Shown here: piece after piece, positions 25,230 through 34,367 of the stretch
Numbering within the stretch: the first letter of the stretch is position 1
Layout: each line of letters starts with the position of its first letter
NCBI GenBank assembly: GCA_015065695.1
Contig: SVPT01000012.1
Location: forward strand, 1 to 37,640
Length of the DNA: 37,640 nt
Direction: 5' to 3'
Source: Oscillospiraceae bacterium
GTDB lineage: Bacteria; Bacillota; Clostridia; Oscillospirales; Acutalibacteraceae
The notes under the pieces: model-generated
What the model was told of the DNA's origin: nothing
The model's input: only the letters and a program-made list of their open reading frames with translations
The model's database searches: none
Made by a program: the position numbers and the translations under genes

Positions 25230-26771
25230 TTATTCATGTTTTTCGGGCTGCAGATAATTTGATGCATCTTTGAAGAAGCTCGCTACGATAAGAATGATTA
25301 CTATGCCGATTGGGAATGCGGCTATGATCGACACGGACTGCAGATTGGACATGGAACTCTCGGAGAATATAAGCGCAATAGGCAGAACGATTAGCAAAAT
25401 ACACCATATCAGCTGAATCAACTTGTGCGGAGATTCATTCTCGCCCAATTTCCTGTAGCTGTAACAGGCACCTATCAGCGCAATTGAGTCAAAGGATGTG
25501 GCATAGAAAAGCAGCATTGTAATCAGAACAAGAGCCAGCACCAAAGGAGATATCGGGAGTGTACGCATAACAGAAATAATCAGTCCGTAGAGGTCGCCGG
25601 TTGCCTGATACTGGGCGATAAAATCCGCAGCGCCGGATGTCTGCATACCCAGCGAATAATTGCCGAGAATGATGAAGCTGAGTATTGTGGAGCCAACACC
25701 GAAAGCATATCCGCCAAGTATTGTCTGACGAATAGTTCTGCCCTTTGAGATACTTCCGATAAAGAAAGGAGCTGCAACGCACCATACCATCCAGTACGCC
25801 CAATAGAAAATGGTCCAGTTCTGCGGGAAAGATGTTGTCCGCAGGGGATCGGTATAAGTTGATAGCTCAAAGAAGTTCTGGATCATAGTACCGATGGATG
25901 AAATGCCTGTTTCTATGATATATCTTGCCTGACCGCCAAAGACCAGCACATATACCTGAAGTCCGAAGAACAGCCATATGCAGATTTTTGCCAGCAGGCT
26001 TATACCCTTGAATCCGTGTAGCAGGGAGTAGGTATATACCACACACGTGATTATAAGGATAATGATATTTGTCACAGTAGTGTTCAGCTGAACGTGGAAG
26101 AGCTCATTGATAATGTTTGCCATCAATGGTGTGGCAAGGCTGAATGTGGTAGCGGTTCCGGAAATAAGTGCAAACACCGCCAGCAGATCTATCAGCCTGC
26201 CAAGAATACCATCTGTATGTTTGCCGAGAATGGGGCGGCAAGCTTCCGAATACTTTTGCCTTTCTCTCTTGCGGATATGAAGCATAAAACCAAACGCTAC
26301 AGCGAGCACGAGGTAAAACGCCCAGGGAATCAGACTCCAGTGATAAATCGGATATACGCTTGCCCATTTCTGAATACTGCCCAGTTCCGCAATGTACGGA
26401 TCGGTTGCATACAGGATCCATTCAGAAAACGAATAGAAAAGGATATCCGCTGCAAGTCCTGCGGTAAACATCATGGAACCCCATGCAAAGAATGAATACT
26501 TTGGTTTTTCATTCTTGTCCCCCAGAACAATATCGCCGAAACGGGAGAAGGCGATGAACATTGATACAAGGAAAATGCCCAGTCCCAGAACCAGATAGTA
26601 CGAACCGAAAGTGTCACCAAGGACAAAGCGTACATTGCTGACTACAGTGTTTGACTGTTCCGGAAACAGGAAGAACAGAACACCCATTGCTACGATGATA
26701 ACAAAAGGAACAAGAGTAATCAGCCAGTCAATCTTTCTGCTCTCTAATTTGACAGATAAATCGTTTTTCAT
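25230..26771 (-). CDS. BCCT family transporter (choline/betaine type)
   Basis: 513 aa, 12-TM-like; FFAWGSMMFTAGLAADILFYSFSEWILYATDP, YHWSLIPWAFYLVLAVAFGFMLHIRKRERQKYSEACRPILG, FYWAYWMVWCVAAPFFIGSISKGRTIRQTILGGYAFGVGSTILSF. Confidence 0.9.
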   Translation of the reverse strand: MKNDLSVKLESRKIDWLITLVPFVIIVAMGVLFFLFPEQSNTVVSNVRFVLGDTFGSYYLVLGLGIFLVSMFIAFSRFGDIVLGDKNEKPKYSFFAWGSMMFTAGLAADILFYSFSEWILYATDPYIAELGSIQKWASVYPIYHWSLIPWAFYLVLAVAFGFMLHIRKRERQKYSEACRPILGKHTDGILGRLIDLLAVFALISGTATTFSLATPLMANIINELFHVQLNTTVTNIIILIITCVVYTYSLLHGFKGISLLAKICIWLFFGLQVYVLVFGGQARYIIETGISSIGTMIQNFFELSTYTDPLRTTSFPQNWTIFYWAYWMVWCVAAPFFIGSISKGRTIRQTILGGYAFGVGSTILSFIILGNYSLGMQTSGAADFIAQYQATGDLYGLIISVMRTLPISPLVLALVLITMLLFYATSFDSIALIGACYSYRKLGENESPHKLIQLIWCILLIVLPIALIFSESSMSNLQSVSIIAAFPIGIVIILIVASFFKDASNYLQPEKHE

Positions 26772-26873
26772 ATTAACTATCCTTTCTGCAGAGCTTCAGG
26801 TTTGCGGCTATGAACCCCAACCCCCGGCTGCAAATTGTTTGTTGAATACATCAGTTATCCGTGAGAGGTTTTC

Positions 26874-27596
26874 CTATTCCTCCTGATGCAGATACTTCCG
26901 GTAGGAAGCATCTATATCCGCGAGTTCATGGATGCTGTCGATTTCGATGATATCACCTATATTCATCGGATATACTGATAGCCTGTATTCATCCGGATAA
27001 CAGAACAAGGCAATGTCATCCCAATAAATCTGGCGGTTTTTCTTTATCTCAAATTCAATTTCCAGATGCCGCTTCAAGCGCTGACCATCTTCAGCAGTCC
27101 AGCGCGACAGGCTGAAAAGCTGCCATCCCTGTCTGCCTCCGCTGCGGCTGCAGTGCGTTACTATTCCGTCATTAACGGTCAACAGCCACTCATCTGTGGG
27201 TTGTTCGGTCCACACCACATTGTATCCGGAACGGTCAAACCCAGGAAAAAGTATGTCATCGCTGTTAATAAGCTGGTCTCCGTCAAGTATTATAACATCT
27301 TCCAGATGTTCGCGAGCAACATATAAGGACGAAATATTGTTGCTCGTATCGTAATATGGGTTTTCTATGAGCTTAAGGCCGGGATATTCAGCCTCAAGAA
27401 AGGAAAACTGCTCCTTGAGATAGCCAACAACCACATAAATTTCTGTAATGTTGTTGGCGTGAAGGCACCTCACCACCGAATCGATCATTCTGGTACCGTT
27501 GATTTTCACCAGTGGCTTTGGCGTAAGCAGAGTAACGGGGCGCATACGCTTTCCTATGCCGGCTGCCATGATGATGGCTCTTTTAATACTGGCCAT
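26874..27596 (-). CDS. Nucleotidyltransferase, phosphocholine cytidylyltransferase (LicC)-like
   Basis: MASIKRAIIMAAGIGKRMRPVTLLTPKPLVKINGTRMIDSVVRCLHANNITEIYVVVGYLKEQF; IILDGDQLINSDDIL. Start trimmed to ATG 27596 on SD spacing. Confidence 0.82.
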   Translation of the reverse strand: MASIKRAIIMAAGIGKRMRPVTLLTPKPLVKINGTRMIDSVVRCLHANNITEIYVVVGYLKEQFSFLEAEYPGLKLIENPYYDTSNNISSLYVAREHLEDVIILDGDQLINSDDILFPGFDRSGYNVVWTEQPTDEWLLTVNDGIVTHCSRSGGRQGWQLFSLSRWTAEDGQRLKRHLEIEFEIKKNRQIYWDDIALFCYPDEYRLSVYPMNIGDIIEIDSIHELADIDASYRKYLHQEE

Positions 27597-32559: not shown

Positions 32560-32645
32560 TCAAACGCTGAAGGCTTTCTCCCCCAACAAGCCCCGAAGAT
32601 GCCTTATACCAACCCGAAACAAAGAACAATCCGAAAGGATCAGAC

Positions 32646-34367
32646 ATGAATAATTGCAAAACCGTAGCGGAGGTCAAAGAAACCTCAAAGAAAAAAGAAT
32701 ACAATATCACTGCGGGCGTATTGCTTGCGCTGTGTGCCAGTTTTATGCTTGGTATATATGCCCCTTTTGAGCTTTACTTCACAAACATGAGTGATTTCTG
32801 GTTTATGCCTAAGCACCTGCTCCTGCCAGTAATTGTATCCTTTGCAGCAATGTTCGTTGCAGAAGTGATTGTGTTTGCTGTAGCTAGAATAATACATAAA
32901 AACGTGTATTATTTCCTTCTTGCGGCTGCATTCATCGCAACCATCGCCACCTACATACAGGGAACCTTCCTTGTGTCGGGTATTCCTAGCATGGACGGTA
33001 CAACATATGATTGGAATCAGCCTTCTCCGGAGAGAATAAAAACAATTGTTGTATGGGCTGCAGTCACAGCAGCAGTTGTCTTTGTTGGTATAAAGTTCAA
33101 ATATACCATACTGGAAAAAGCGGTCAGGTATATATCCGTTGCCTTGATGGTCATGCTTTCGGTGTCGATGATTTCAATTGTAATATCATCTCCGGACGAG
33201 GACTGGTCCGGAGAATATCTTGAGTGCACAACCAGAAATATGTTCGAAATGTCCGATGACACCAATCTTTTGGTATTCATTCTGGACGCAGTTGATAACA
33301 CGACATTCAAAAACGCCATTGAGTCCAATCCGGAATTCAGCAATACATTTGATGATTTTACCTATTATAACAATCTCCTTACAGGGTATCTGTACACTGC
33401 CGAAGCAATTCCGTTTATTCTTTCCGGAGATTGGGATGAGAATGATCAGGATCCAATCACCTATCAGAATGACGCGTTTAGCAACTCTCCGCTTATAAAG
33501 ACTCTGGAGGACGAAGAATATAGCATCGGACTGTATCTTTGCATGGATAATAAATCCAAACTGAAGAAAGACGTGTTCGATGGCAGAATAGAGAATTATG
33601 AAGCTGTCGATTCCGTAGAACTGAGATTTACAAACTTGCGGGATTCCTTAATGGTTGTTGGCGGAATGGCACTTGTGCGTTACGCTCCGTGGGATTTAAA
33701 AAGGGTATGTTATCGGCTTCCTGGCAAGATTGAAAAATCAAAAAAATTAGATTCGCGGTTTGAATATAGCAACTCGGTGTTTTATGACCAGATTAAGAAC
33801 AACAATCCTATTGAACTGGTGGACAGAAAGTGCTGCAGAATCATCCACATTGAGGGTGCTCATGTGCCGTATCAGTATGACAAAAACATGAACTGGATTG
33901 AAGATCCGGCACAAGCGACTTATTCCGACTGTGTTGAAGGATGTGTAACTATGTGCGACAAGCTCATACAGCATCTGAAGGACAAAGGGATATACGACAA
34001 TACAGCAATCGTGATCATGTCGGATCATGGGTATGATCAGGTCGGATATCGACTTGAAGGCAGAGTAAATCCGATATTGCTCGTAAAGGGTATAGACGAA
34101 CATCATGAGATGCAGTATTCCGAAGCCCCTATTTCTCATGTGGATTGTGCGCAGGGTTTTTCGGAGCTTGTACAGGGTAAACCCAGCGACGAGATTTTCA
34201 AATACCGTGATGGCGATGAAAGAGAACGTCGTGTTTTGATTTACGATCACTCCAAAAAGCAGGAATGCATGAGTGAGTATGTGACTACCGGAAGGGCAGA
34301 TGATTTCGAAGCACTGACACCGACCGGAAAGCAGTATGTATATGGCGAAGAAAACACTGCTGAATAA
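32646..34367 (+). CDS. LtaS/sulfatase-superfamily membrane protein
   Basis: 573 aa; N-terminal TM helices; LLVFILDAVDNTTF, NNLLTGYLYTAEAIPFILSGDW, IIHIEGAHVPYQYD, DNTAIVIMSDHGYDQVG. Confidence 0.78.
   Translation: MNNCKTVAEVKETSKKKEYNITAGVLLALCASFMLGIYAPFELYFTNMSDFWFMPKHLLLPVIVSFAAMFVAEVIVFAVARIIHKNVYYFLLAAAFIATIATYIQGTFLVSGIPSMDGTTYDWNQPSPERIKTIVVWAAVTAAVVFVGIKFKYTILEKAVRYISVALMVMLSVSMISIVISSPDEDWSGEYLECTTRNMFEMSDDTNLLVFILDAVDNTTFKNAIESNPEFSNTFDDFTYYNNLLTGYLYTAEAIPFILSGDWDENDQDPITYQNDAFSNSPLIKTLEDEEYSIGLYLCMDNKSKLKKDVFDGRIENYEAVDSVELRFTNLRDSLMVVGGMALVRYAPWDLKRVCYRLPGKIEKSKKLDSRFEYSNSVFYDQIKNNNPIELVDRKCCRIIHIEGAHVPYQYDKNMNWIEDPAQATYSDCVEGCVTMCDKLIQHLKDKGIYDNTAIVIMSDHGYDQVGYRLEGRVNPILLVKGIDEHHEMQYSEAPISHVDCAQGFSELVQGKPSDEIFKYRDGDERERRVLIYDHSKKQECMSEYVTTGRADDFEALTPTGKQYVYGEENTAE

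Follow-up and report, generated by a model that had tools for sequence, protein, structure and literature searches.

The 37,640-nucleotide stretch of Oscillospiraceae DNA described here (contig SVPT01000012.1 of assembly GCA_015065695.1; referred to below as the window) contains a seven-gene locus that is probably a surface-tailoring cassette for phosphocholine. The locus is made up of a minus-strand arm for choline supply and a plus-strand arm centered on a protein that combines a YidC-like insertase domain with a TagF-like domain, and the two arms diverge from a short gap (Table 1). Cassettes of this type, previously undescribed, were found in gut and rumen clostridia, and they would work like the Lic and Pnt pathways while being full members of neither. 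In the original prediction, made from the letters of the window and their translations, the locus was read as coupling phosphocholine supply to the assembly of a teichoic-acid-like polymer. The coupling of supply to the YidC-TagF arm is retained here and the polymer assembly is not, and headgroup tailoring by an exchangeable cassette describes the function of the locus better. The source is a metagenome-assembled genome (MAG) of 2.32 Mb in 152 contigs that is 83% complete.

In the proposed pathway, choline would be imported by the BCCT transporter, as suggested by homology and context, phosphorylated by a LicA-like domain, and converted from phosphocholine to cytidine diphosphate (CDP)-choline in the cytoplasm by a LicC-like enzyme, with homology and conserved pocket residues pointing to the latter two steps. 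The TagF-like domain, at the cytoplasmic face of the membrane, would then move phosphocholine from CDP-choline onto a membrane-bound acceptor. Finally, a sulfatase-fold enzyme of the Thr type and its YIDPSA partner may act outside, placing or extending the decorated product on the surface, which is the weakest step of the proposal. Relatives of the locus would feed the same core other cytidylyl-activated headgroups, namely 2-aminoethylphosphonate (AEP), either taken up or synthesized de novo, and perhaps an amino-alcohol phosphate of the CobD type.

Table 1. Features of the locus in the window, from open reading frame (ORF) coordinates and Pfam/NCBIfam matches; domain and residue numbers are those of the encoded proteins.
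Feature	Position	Strand	Detail
Minus arm	25230-29380	-	three genes
BCCT transporter, predicted choline importer	25230-26771	-	BCCT E 3e-124
LicC-like CTP:phosphocholine cytidylyltransferase	26874-27605	-	best PDB chain LicC 1jyk, E 1.7e-29
Three-domain nucleotidyltransferase-kinase fusion	27605-29380	-	winged helix-turn-helix (HTH) ~1-60; LicC-like 67-287; LicA-like choline kinase 288-572
Divergent gap	29381-29598
Promoter-like site, choline arm	29416-29444	-	TTGACT-N17-TATAAT, 11/12
Promoter-like site, assembly arm	29510-29538	+	TTGACA-N17-TATAAT, 12/12, perfect sigma-70
Near-perfect inverted repeat TATCGATTGAAATCGATA, candidate operator	29549-29566		directly after plus-strand promoter
Plus arm	29599-34367	+	four genes
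YIDPSA small membrane protein	29599-29913	+	signal sequence ending AYA, followed by YIDPS; one transmembrane helix; charged C-terminus
Signal peptidase I	29882-30463	+	Peptidase_S26 E 4e-34
YidC-TagF fusion	30475-32559	+
YidC domain of fusion	30550-31317	+	residues 26-281
TagF-like domain of fusion	31477-32478	+	residues 335-668
TagF-type His431 of fusion	31765-31767	+
D436 of fusion	31780-31782	+
TagF-type motifs of fusion		+	RPH539P; TDWS588
Membrane enzyme, sulfatase/alkaline-phosphatase superfamily	32646-34367	+	Sulfatase E 1e-9
Terminator-like hairpin	34440-34472	+	15 pairs; 3' of sulfatase gene

The Cassette Core and Its Supply Modules

The neighborhood of the fusion was surveyed at 104 loci, comprising a first set of 86 (80 from a fusion search of GTDB genomes, 5 from the family of the window genome, and the window itself) and 18 held-out loci. 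Common to these loci is a core consisting of the fusion, a YIDPS small membrane protein, a sulfatase-fold enzyme and, often, a signal peptidase. The supply module beside the core is of the choline type at 20 loci, all in the first set of 86 and including the window, while 13 loci carry AEP import, 22 carry AEP biosynthesis, and 9 carry a cytidylyltransferase-CobD-like fusion. Modules are present at 15 of the 18 held-out loci (11 AEP synthesis, 4 CobD-like). In the 19 other choline loci, the LicA-like kinase gene lies directly downstream of the fusion gene on the same strand, at a distance of 22-382 bp, and is followed by LicC-like and BCCT genes in 18 (one lacks the BCCT gene). Both arms are on one strand in all 19; divergent arms are a feature of the window only.

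The AEP-import loci encode PhnS2/T2/U2-like importers and a winged-helix cytidylyltransferase, and the AEP-biosynthesis loci encode phosphoenolpyruvate (PEP) mutase, phosphonopyruvate decarboxylase, and AEP transaminase. These three enzymes, together with PntC, make up the Pnt pathway. Relatives of the fusion accompany the Pnt genes, or an AEP-type ATP-binding cassette (ABC) importer with a cytidylyltransferase that has Glu at position 105, whereas the module in the window is of the choline type, with Asp105. In CobD-like loci (L011, L064, L073, L102, L116, L183-L185), the cytidylyltransferase is fused to (or, where truncated, matches) a CobD/HisC-like aminotransferase or decarboxylase, and a module of this type could be a source of CDP-activated ethanolamine or another amino alcohol. 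Two YidC-TagF cassettes were observed per genome in three cases (L075 and L078; L076 and L079; L176 and L177), the last pair having different supply modules.

The original prediction had named failure of the two arms to co-occur as grounds for its refutation. The choline module was found beside the fusion at 20 loci in several lineages, compared with no module, YIDPS, sulfatase, or signal-peptidase match in any of 14 control regions (4-19 kb) around stand-alone yidC genes of the same genomes. The fusion tree requires at least 11 switches of the named module, and 5 choline changes are forced by well-supported branches. AEP genes accompany relatives of the fusion at least as often as choline genes do. 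In 7 of 10 regions (L121-L130), TagF-like relatives that have no YidC domain also adjoin kinase/cytidylyltransferase or phosphonate genes, and BCCT genes occur beside such proteins as well. The core seems to be a generic machine with exchangeable supply modules, a general decorator of bacterial surfaces.

The Choline Arm

The gene content that the original prediction gave for both arms was recovered from ORF coordinates and Pfam/NCBIfam matches (BCCT, NTP_transf_3, and Choline_kinase in the minus arm; Peptidase_S26, 60KD_IMP with Glyphos_transf in one ORF, and Sulfatase in the plus arm). What it had overlooked is the N-terminal winged-helix DNA-binding domain that Pfam/NCBIfam identifies on the kinase fusion. 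The Lic-1 phosphocholine pathway of Streptococcus and Haemophilus consists of LicA, LicB, LicC, and LicD. The window shares with this pathway choline import, a LicA-type kinase, and a LicC-type cytidylyltransferase with conserved pocket residues, but differs in having a BCCT transporter in place of LicB (no LicB-type gene was seen in the cluster), in the addition of the YIDPSA protein, signal peptidase, and sulfatase-fold enzyme, and in a kinase to which a winged helix and an atypical LicC-like domain are joined. The BCCT gene is the sole one of the MAG, and other choline genomes hold one or two. The closest solved chains are DddT (2e-92) and a high-affinity choline transport protein (2e-52).

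The kinase fusion matches NTP_transf_3 (E 1e-14) and Choline_kinase (E 8e-14), and the best PDB match of its kinase domain is pneumococcal LicA (4r77, E 7.5e-33). The choline pocket of LicA is formed by T29, D176, V178, Y197, W251, W254, and Y268 (PMC4364537). These residues are conserved in the window kinase (in GMTN, HIDAV, DWEY, WSNW, and GEY) and in almost every choline-module relative, and the kinases at non-choline loci deviate at them. The separate cytidylyltransferase retains every LicC position compared (D105, D107, W136, Y190, W191, D192, E216). Conservation of the published LicA and LicC pocket residues supports choline as the likely substrate of the kinase and phosphocholine as that of the cytidylyltransferase, as had been proposed.

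The LicC-like domain within the kinase fusion also matches LicC (1jyk, E 1.6e-27) but is atypical, with P105 and S136 replacing Asp and Trp. Pro105 recurs in all seven aligned relatives that have the three-domain protein, where position 136 is Ser or Gly. Since the LicC residues are kept in the separate gene and positions 105 and 136 are Pro and Ser in the fused domain, the separate gene is the most likely source of LicC activity, and a different substrate or a sensing role is most likely for the fused domain.

The domain order of the kinase fusion (HTH, nucleotidyltransferase, small-molecule kinase) is that of NadR, although the domain families and substrate differ. The HTH domain of NadR represses genes when the pathway product is present (PMC12421817); by analogy, the winged-helix kinase may signal supply back to the shared promoter region. 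The AEP-type cytidylyltransferases of AEP-import loci (L058, L113, and others) likewise bear an N-terminal winged helix, which suggests autoregulation within this group.

Putative Substrate-Specificity Residues

Asp105 of LicC corresponds to Glu104 of PntC, a published difference between these enzymes (PMC6697681). At LicC position 105, 19 of 20 choline-module enzymes have Asp, and all 18 LicC/PntC-like enzymes from AEP modules have Glu, a count that covers neither three more distant enzymes from AEP-synthesis loci nor the CobD-linked enzymes and that, as the sequences are related by descent, does not represent independent events. The window cytidylyltransferase has Asp105, and no AEP genes are present at its locus.

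A parallel pattern was seen in the fusion at residue 436, five residues past the TagF-type His. Asp occupies this position in 19 of 20 choline loci, as well as in two loci classed by an Asp105 enzyme alone, and in none of the 24 AEP loci of the first set. Four independent tree contrasts between residue 436 and module type agree or are neutral. The single exception, locus L087, is also the exception at cytidylyltransferase position 105. Column 436 is the only one in the fusion at which each of the four choline lineages shows a residue specific to choline. It was chosen post hoc, however, and Asp also occurs in 2 of the 11 held-out AEP loci (L178, L179), because of which D436 was rejected as a strict choline code. 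It is best taken as a hint of contact with the donor and not as a rule.

The YidC-TagF Fusion

The fusion matches 60KD_IMP (E 7.5e-33) and Glyphos_transf (E 9e-10) in a single ORF. Misassembly does not account for the fusion, because both domains are present in all of the best 120 of more than 3000 homologues, at 60-76% identity across the full length. An AlphaFold2 model of the protein is confident (predicted local distance difference test score of 83), and the closest folds to its C- and N-terminal parts are TagF (3l7j) and Bacillus YidC (3wo7; TM-score by target 0.66), respectively. The topology of Gram-positive YidC is known, and by analogy the TagF domain would lie on the cytoplasmic face of the membrane. 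A literature search found no paper on a YidC-TagF fusion.

The fusion resembles YidC/Oxa1 insertases in domain and fold but lacks the conserved groove Arg. This residue is Lys in the window and in the fusions of 84 of 85 relatives, and Arg in 21 of 23 stand-alone YidC proteins. A separate YidC is present in at least 13 of the 17 other fusion genomes checked, so replacement of the housekeeping YidC by the fusion was rejected; the absence of a stand-alone YidC from this MAG probably reflects incompleteness. Because most fusion genomes also keep a normal YidC, the fusion is regarded as a YidC paralogue with another job. The idea that the fused YidC domain has an insertion of its own was likewise rejected, as the loop concerned (about 92 residues) has the same length in stand-alone YidC.

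The YIDPSA Protein, Signal Peptidase, and Sulfatase-Fold Enzyme

A Pfam search assigned no family to the YIDPSA protein; proteins of its type are found near 80 of the 86 first-set fusions. A signal peptidase is found near 37 of the 86, and the co-encoded enzyme is predicted to process the YIDPSA protein.

The sulfatase-fold gene is the sole one of its kind in the MAG. Its product is similar to YejM/PbgA, LtaS, and EptA/MCR in having membrane helices and an alkaline-phosphatase-superfamily domain with a conserved Thr (the invariant Thr251, encoded at 33396-33398) and metal-type residues (D214, D460, H461), and differs from them in having a YIDPS membrane segment as partner. The closest fold is YejM/PbgA, with LtaP/LtaS and MCR-1 ranking lower, and sequence comparison gave no match to YejM/PbgA, LtaS, or EptA/MCR. 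As Thr is the nucleophile in LtaS/EptA-type enzymes (PMC7576196), the enzyme is more likely a phosphotransferase or phosphatase than a sulfatase. At several loci (L096, L100, L102, L103, L107, L108, L112), mostly from Solobacterium MAGs, the sulfatase-fold enzyme carries the YIDPS segment as an N-terminal fusion, and this ties the two together.

The Candidate Transferase and Alternative Explanations

LicD is the usual phosphocholine transferase. A search for LicD (PF04991) gave no match in the 83%-complete MAG, and LicD is missing from 10 of the 20 choline-module genomes, this one included. The candidate transferase in the window is the YidC-TagF fusion. This protein is similar to TagF, the CDP-glycerol:poly(glycerophosphate) glycerophosphotransferase, in its Glyphos_transf match, best fold, and His, RPHP, and TDxS motifs. 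These features, along with the LtaS-like character of an alkaline-phosphatase-superfamily membrane enzyme with a Thr nucleophile, are what would be expected if the TagF-like domain polymerized glycerol phosphate, the sulfatase were of the LtaS type, and phosphocholine were added to the polymer by another transferase. This alternative is unlikely. The fusion differs from TagF in its YidC domain and in having DHGCSSDN where TagF has HGTPLK, the cluster is devoid of CDP-glycerol and TagD-type genes, the MAG encodes a canonical HGTPLK TagF elsewhere, next to a TagD-like gene, no LicD was found to serve as the other transferase, and the cores are linked to AEP genes as noted above. Because of the missing CDP-glycerol gene, the canonical TagF elsewhere, the loss of HGTPLK, and the AEP-linked relatives, the TagF-like domain is more likely a headgroup transferase than a glycerol-phosphate polymerase, and the teichoic-acid-like polymer assembly of the original prediction is unsupported as stated.

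In addition to the reservations about D436, several observations weigh against the reading of the locus as a phosphocholine-tailoring cassette. No module was found in the fetched DNA of 40 of the 104 loci, many of which are truncated, and half of the choline genomes hold LicD elsewhere in the genome. Choline as the BCCT solute is suggested mainly by context, since the nearest solved BCCT is DddT. Moreover, the MAG has three CDP-alcohol phosphotransferases (CDP-OH_P_transf, PF01066), and CDP-choline may therefore serve phosphatidylcholine.

This last point leads to a further, improbable explanation, in which the choline arm supplies phosphatidylcholine or another phosphocholine lipid, with the headgroup added by the TagF-like domain or a CDP-alcohol phosphotransferase, and the sulfatase-fold enzyme passes the headgroup to surface acceptors in the manner of PptA from Neisseria. 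PptA-type transferases use phosphatidylcholine (PMC10434233), and YejM and MCR-1 are among the fold neighbors of the sulfatase-fold enzyme, but the three PF01066 genes are on other contigs, none is at the locus, and the linkage observed is to a Glyphos_transf domain. That the YidC domain, signal peptidase, and YIDPSA protein form a membrane-protein biogenesis unit with the choline arm as a chance neighbor is very hard to credit and already largely refuted: YidC and signal peptidase are protein-export factors and the window arms are divergent, but the adjacency is repeated across many genomes (and in none of the 14 matched controls), the 19 other choline loci have both arms on one strand, and the choline module is repeatedly replaced by functionally equivalent ones.

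Beyond phosphocholine tailoring at the window locus, a broader proposal can be offered tentatively, with the odds somewhat against it. YidC-TagF fusions may form a new class of cytidylyl-headgroup transferases with a dedicated membrane domain of insertase origin and an exit unit made up of YIDPS and the sulfatase-fold enzyme, one interchangeable machine that would tailor clostridial surfaces with phosphocholine, AEP, or amino-alcohol phosphates, the YidC groove handling a lipid-linked or membrane-protein acceptor instead of performing ordinary protein insertion. Phosphocholine and AEP are host-recognized or host-mimicking surface groups, and our literature search found no described pathway that places either on a gut clostridial surface. 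The cassette places the small membrane proteins of the YIDPS family in a context for the first time and, if the proposal is true, a YidC paralogue has been recruited into polymer or lipid tailoring. The step after PntC was left open in the Pnt pathway (PMC6697681), and the YidC-TagF fusion is a candidate for it; in swapping between AEP and choline modules, the fusion is a concrete candidate for an enzyme that uses CMP-AEP.

Intergenic Region and Genomic Context

The back-to-back promoters described in the original prediction were confirmed in the divergent gap (Table 1). They are the best two among 18 promoter-like sites in 9.9 kb, with one further site also scoring 11/12. The inverted repeat has one exact match, with a chance expectation of 0.11 even at 3 mismatches. 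The palindrome was rejected as a conserved operator, as it is present in copies of the window locus only and in none of 133 other loci.

About 23 kb into the window, at a tRNA-Pro gene (22954-23029), the GC content drops to 42-47% from 52-60%, and the low-GC stretch that follows (22954-37640) holds the locus. No attachment-site repeats of the tRNA-Pro gene were found within the window. Of 201 genomes sampled from this family, only 6 carry the fusion, and the two other genomes of the same genus in this sample, both incomplete, are without it. The low-GC stretch resembles a genomic island, and the locus was likely acquired horizontally. Two further groups of genes were observed in the window. 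Three tandem paralogous genes (229, 237, and 228 aa) lie at 34636-36825, the first having no Pfam match, and the family recurs as a short repeat near 37139. The region 12235-17277 encodes two large membrane proteins, of 946 and 712 aa, that look YfhO-like and O-antigen-ligase-like by eye.

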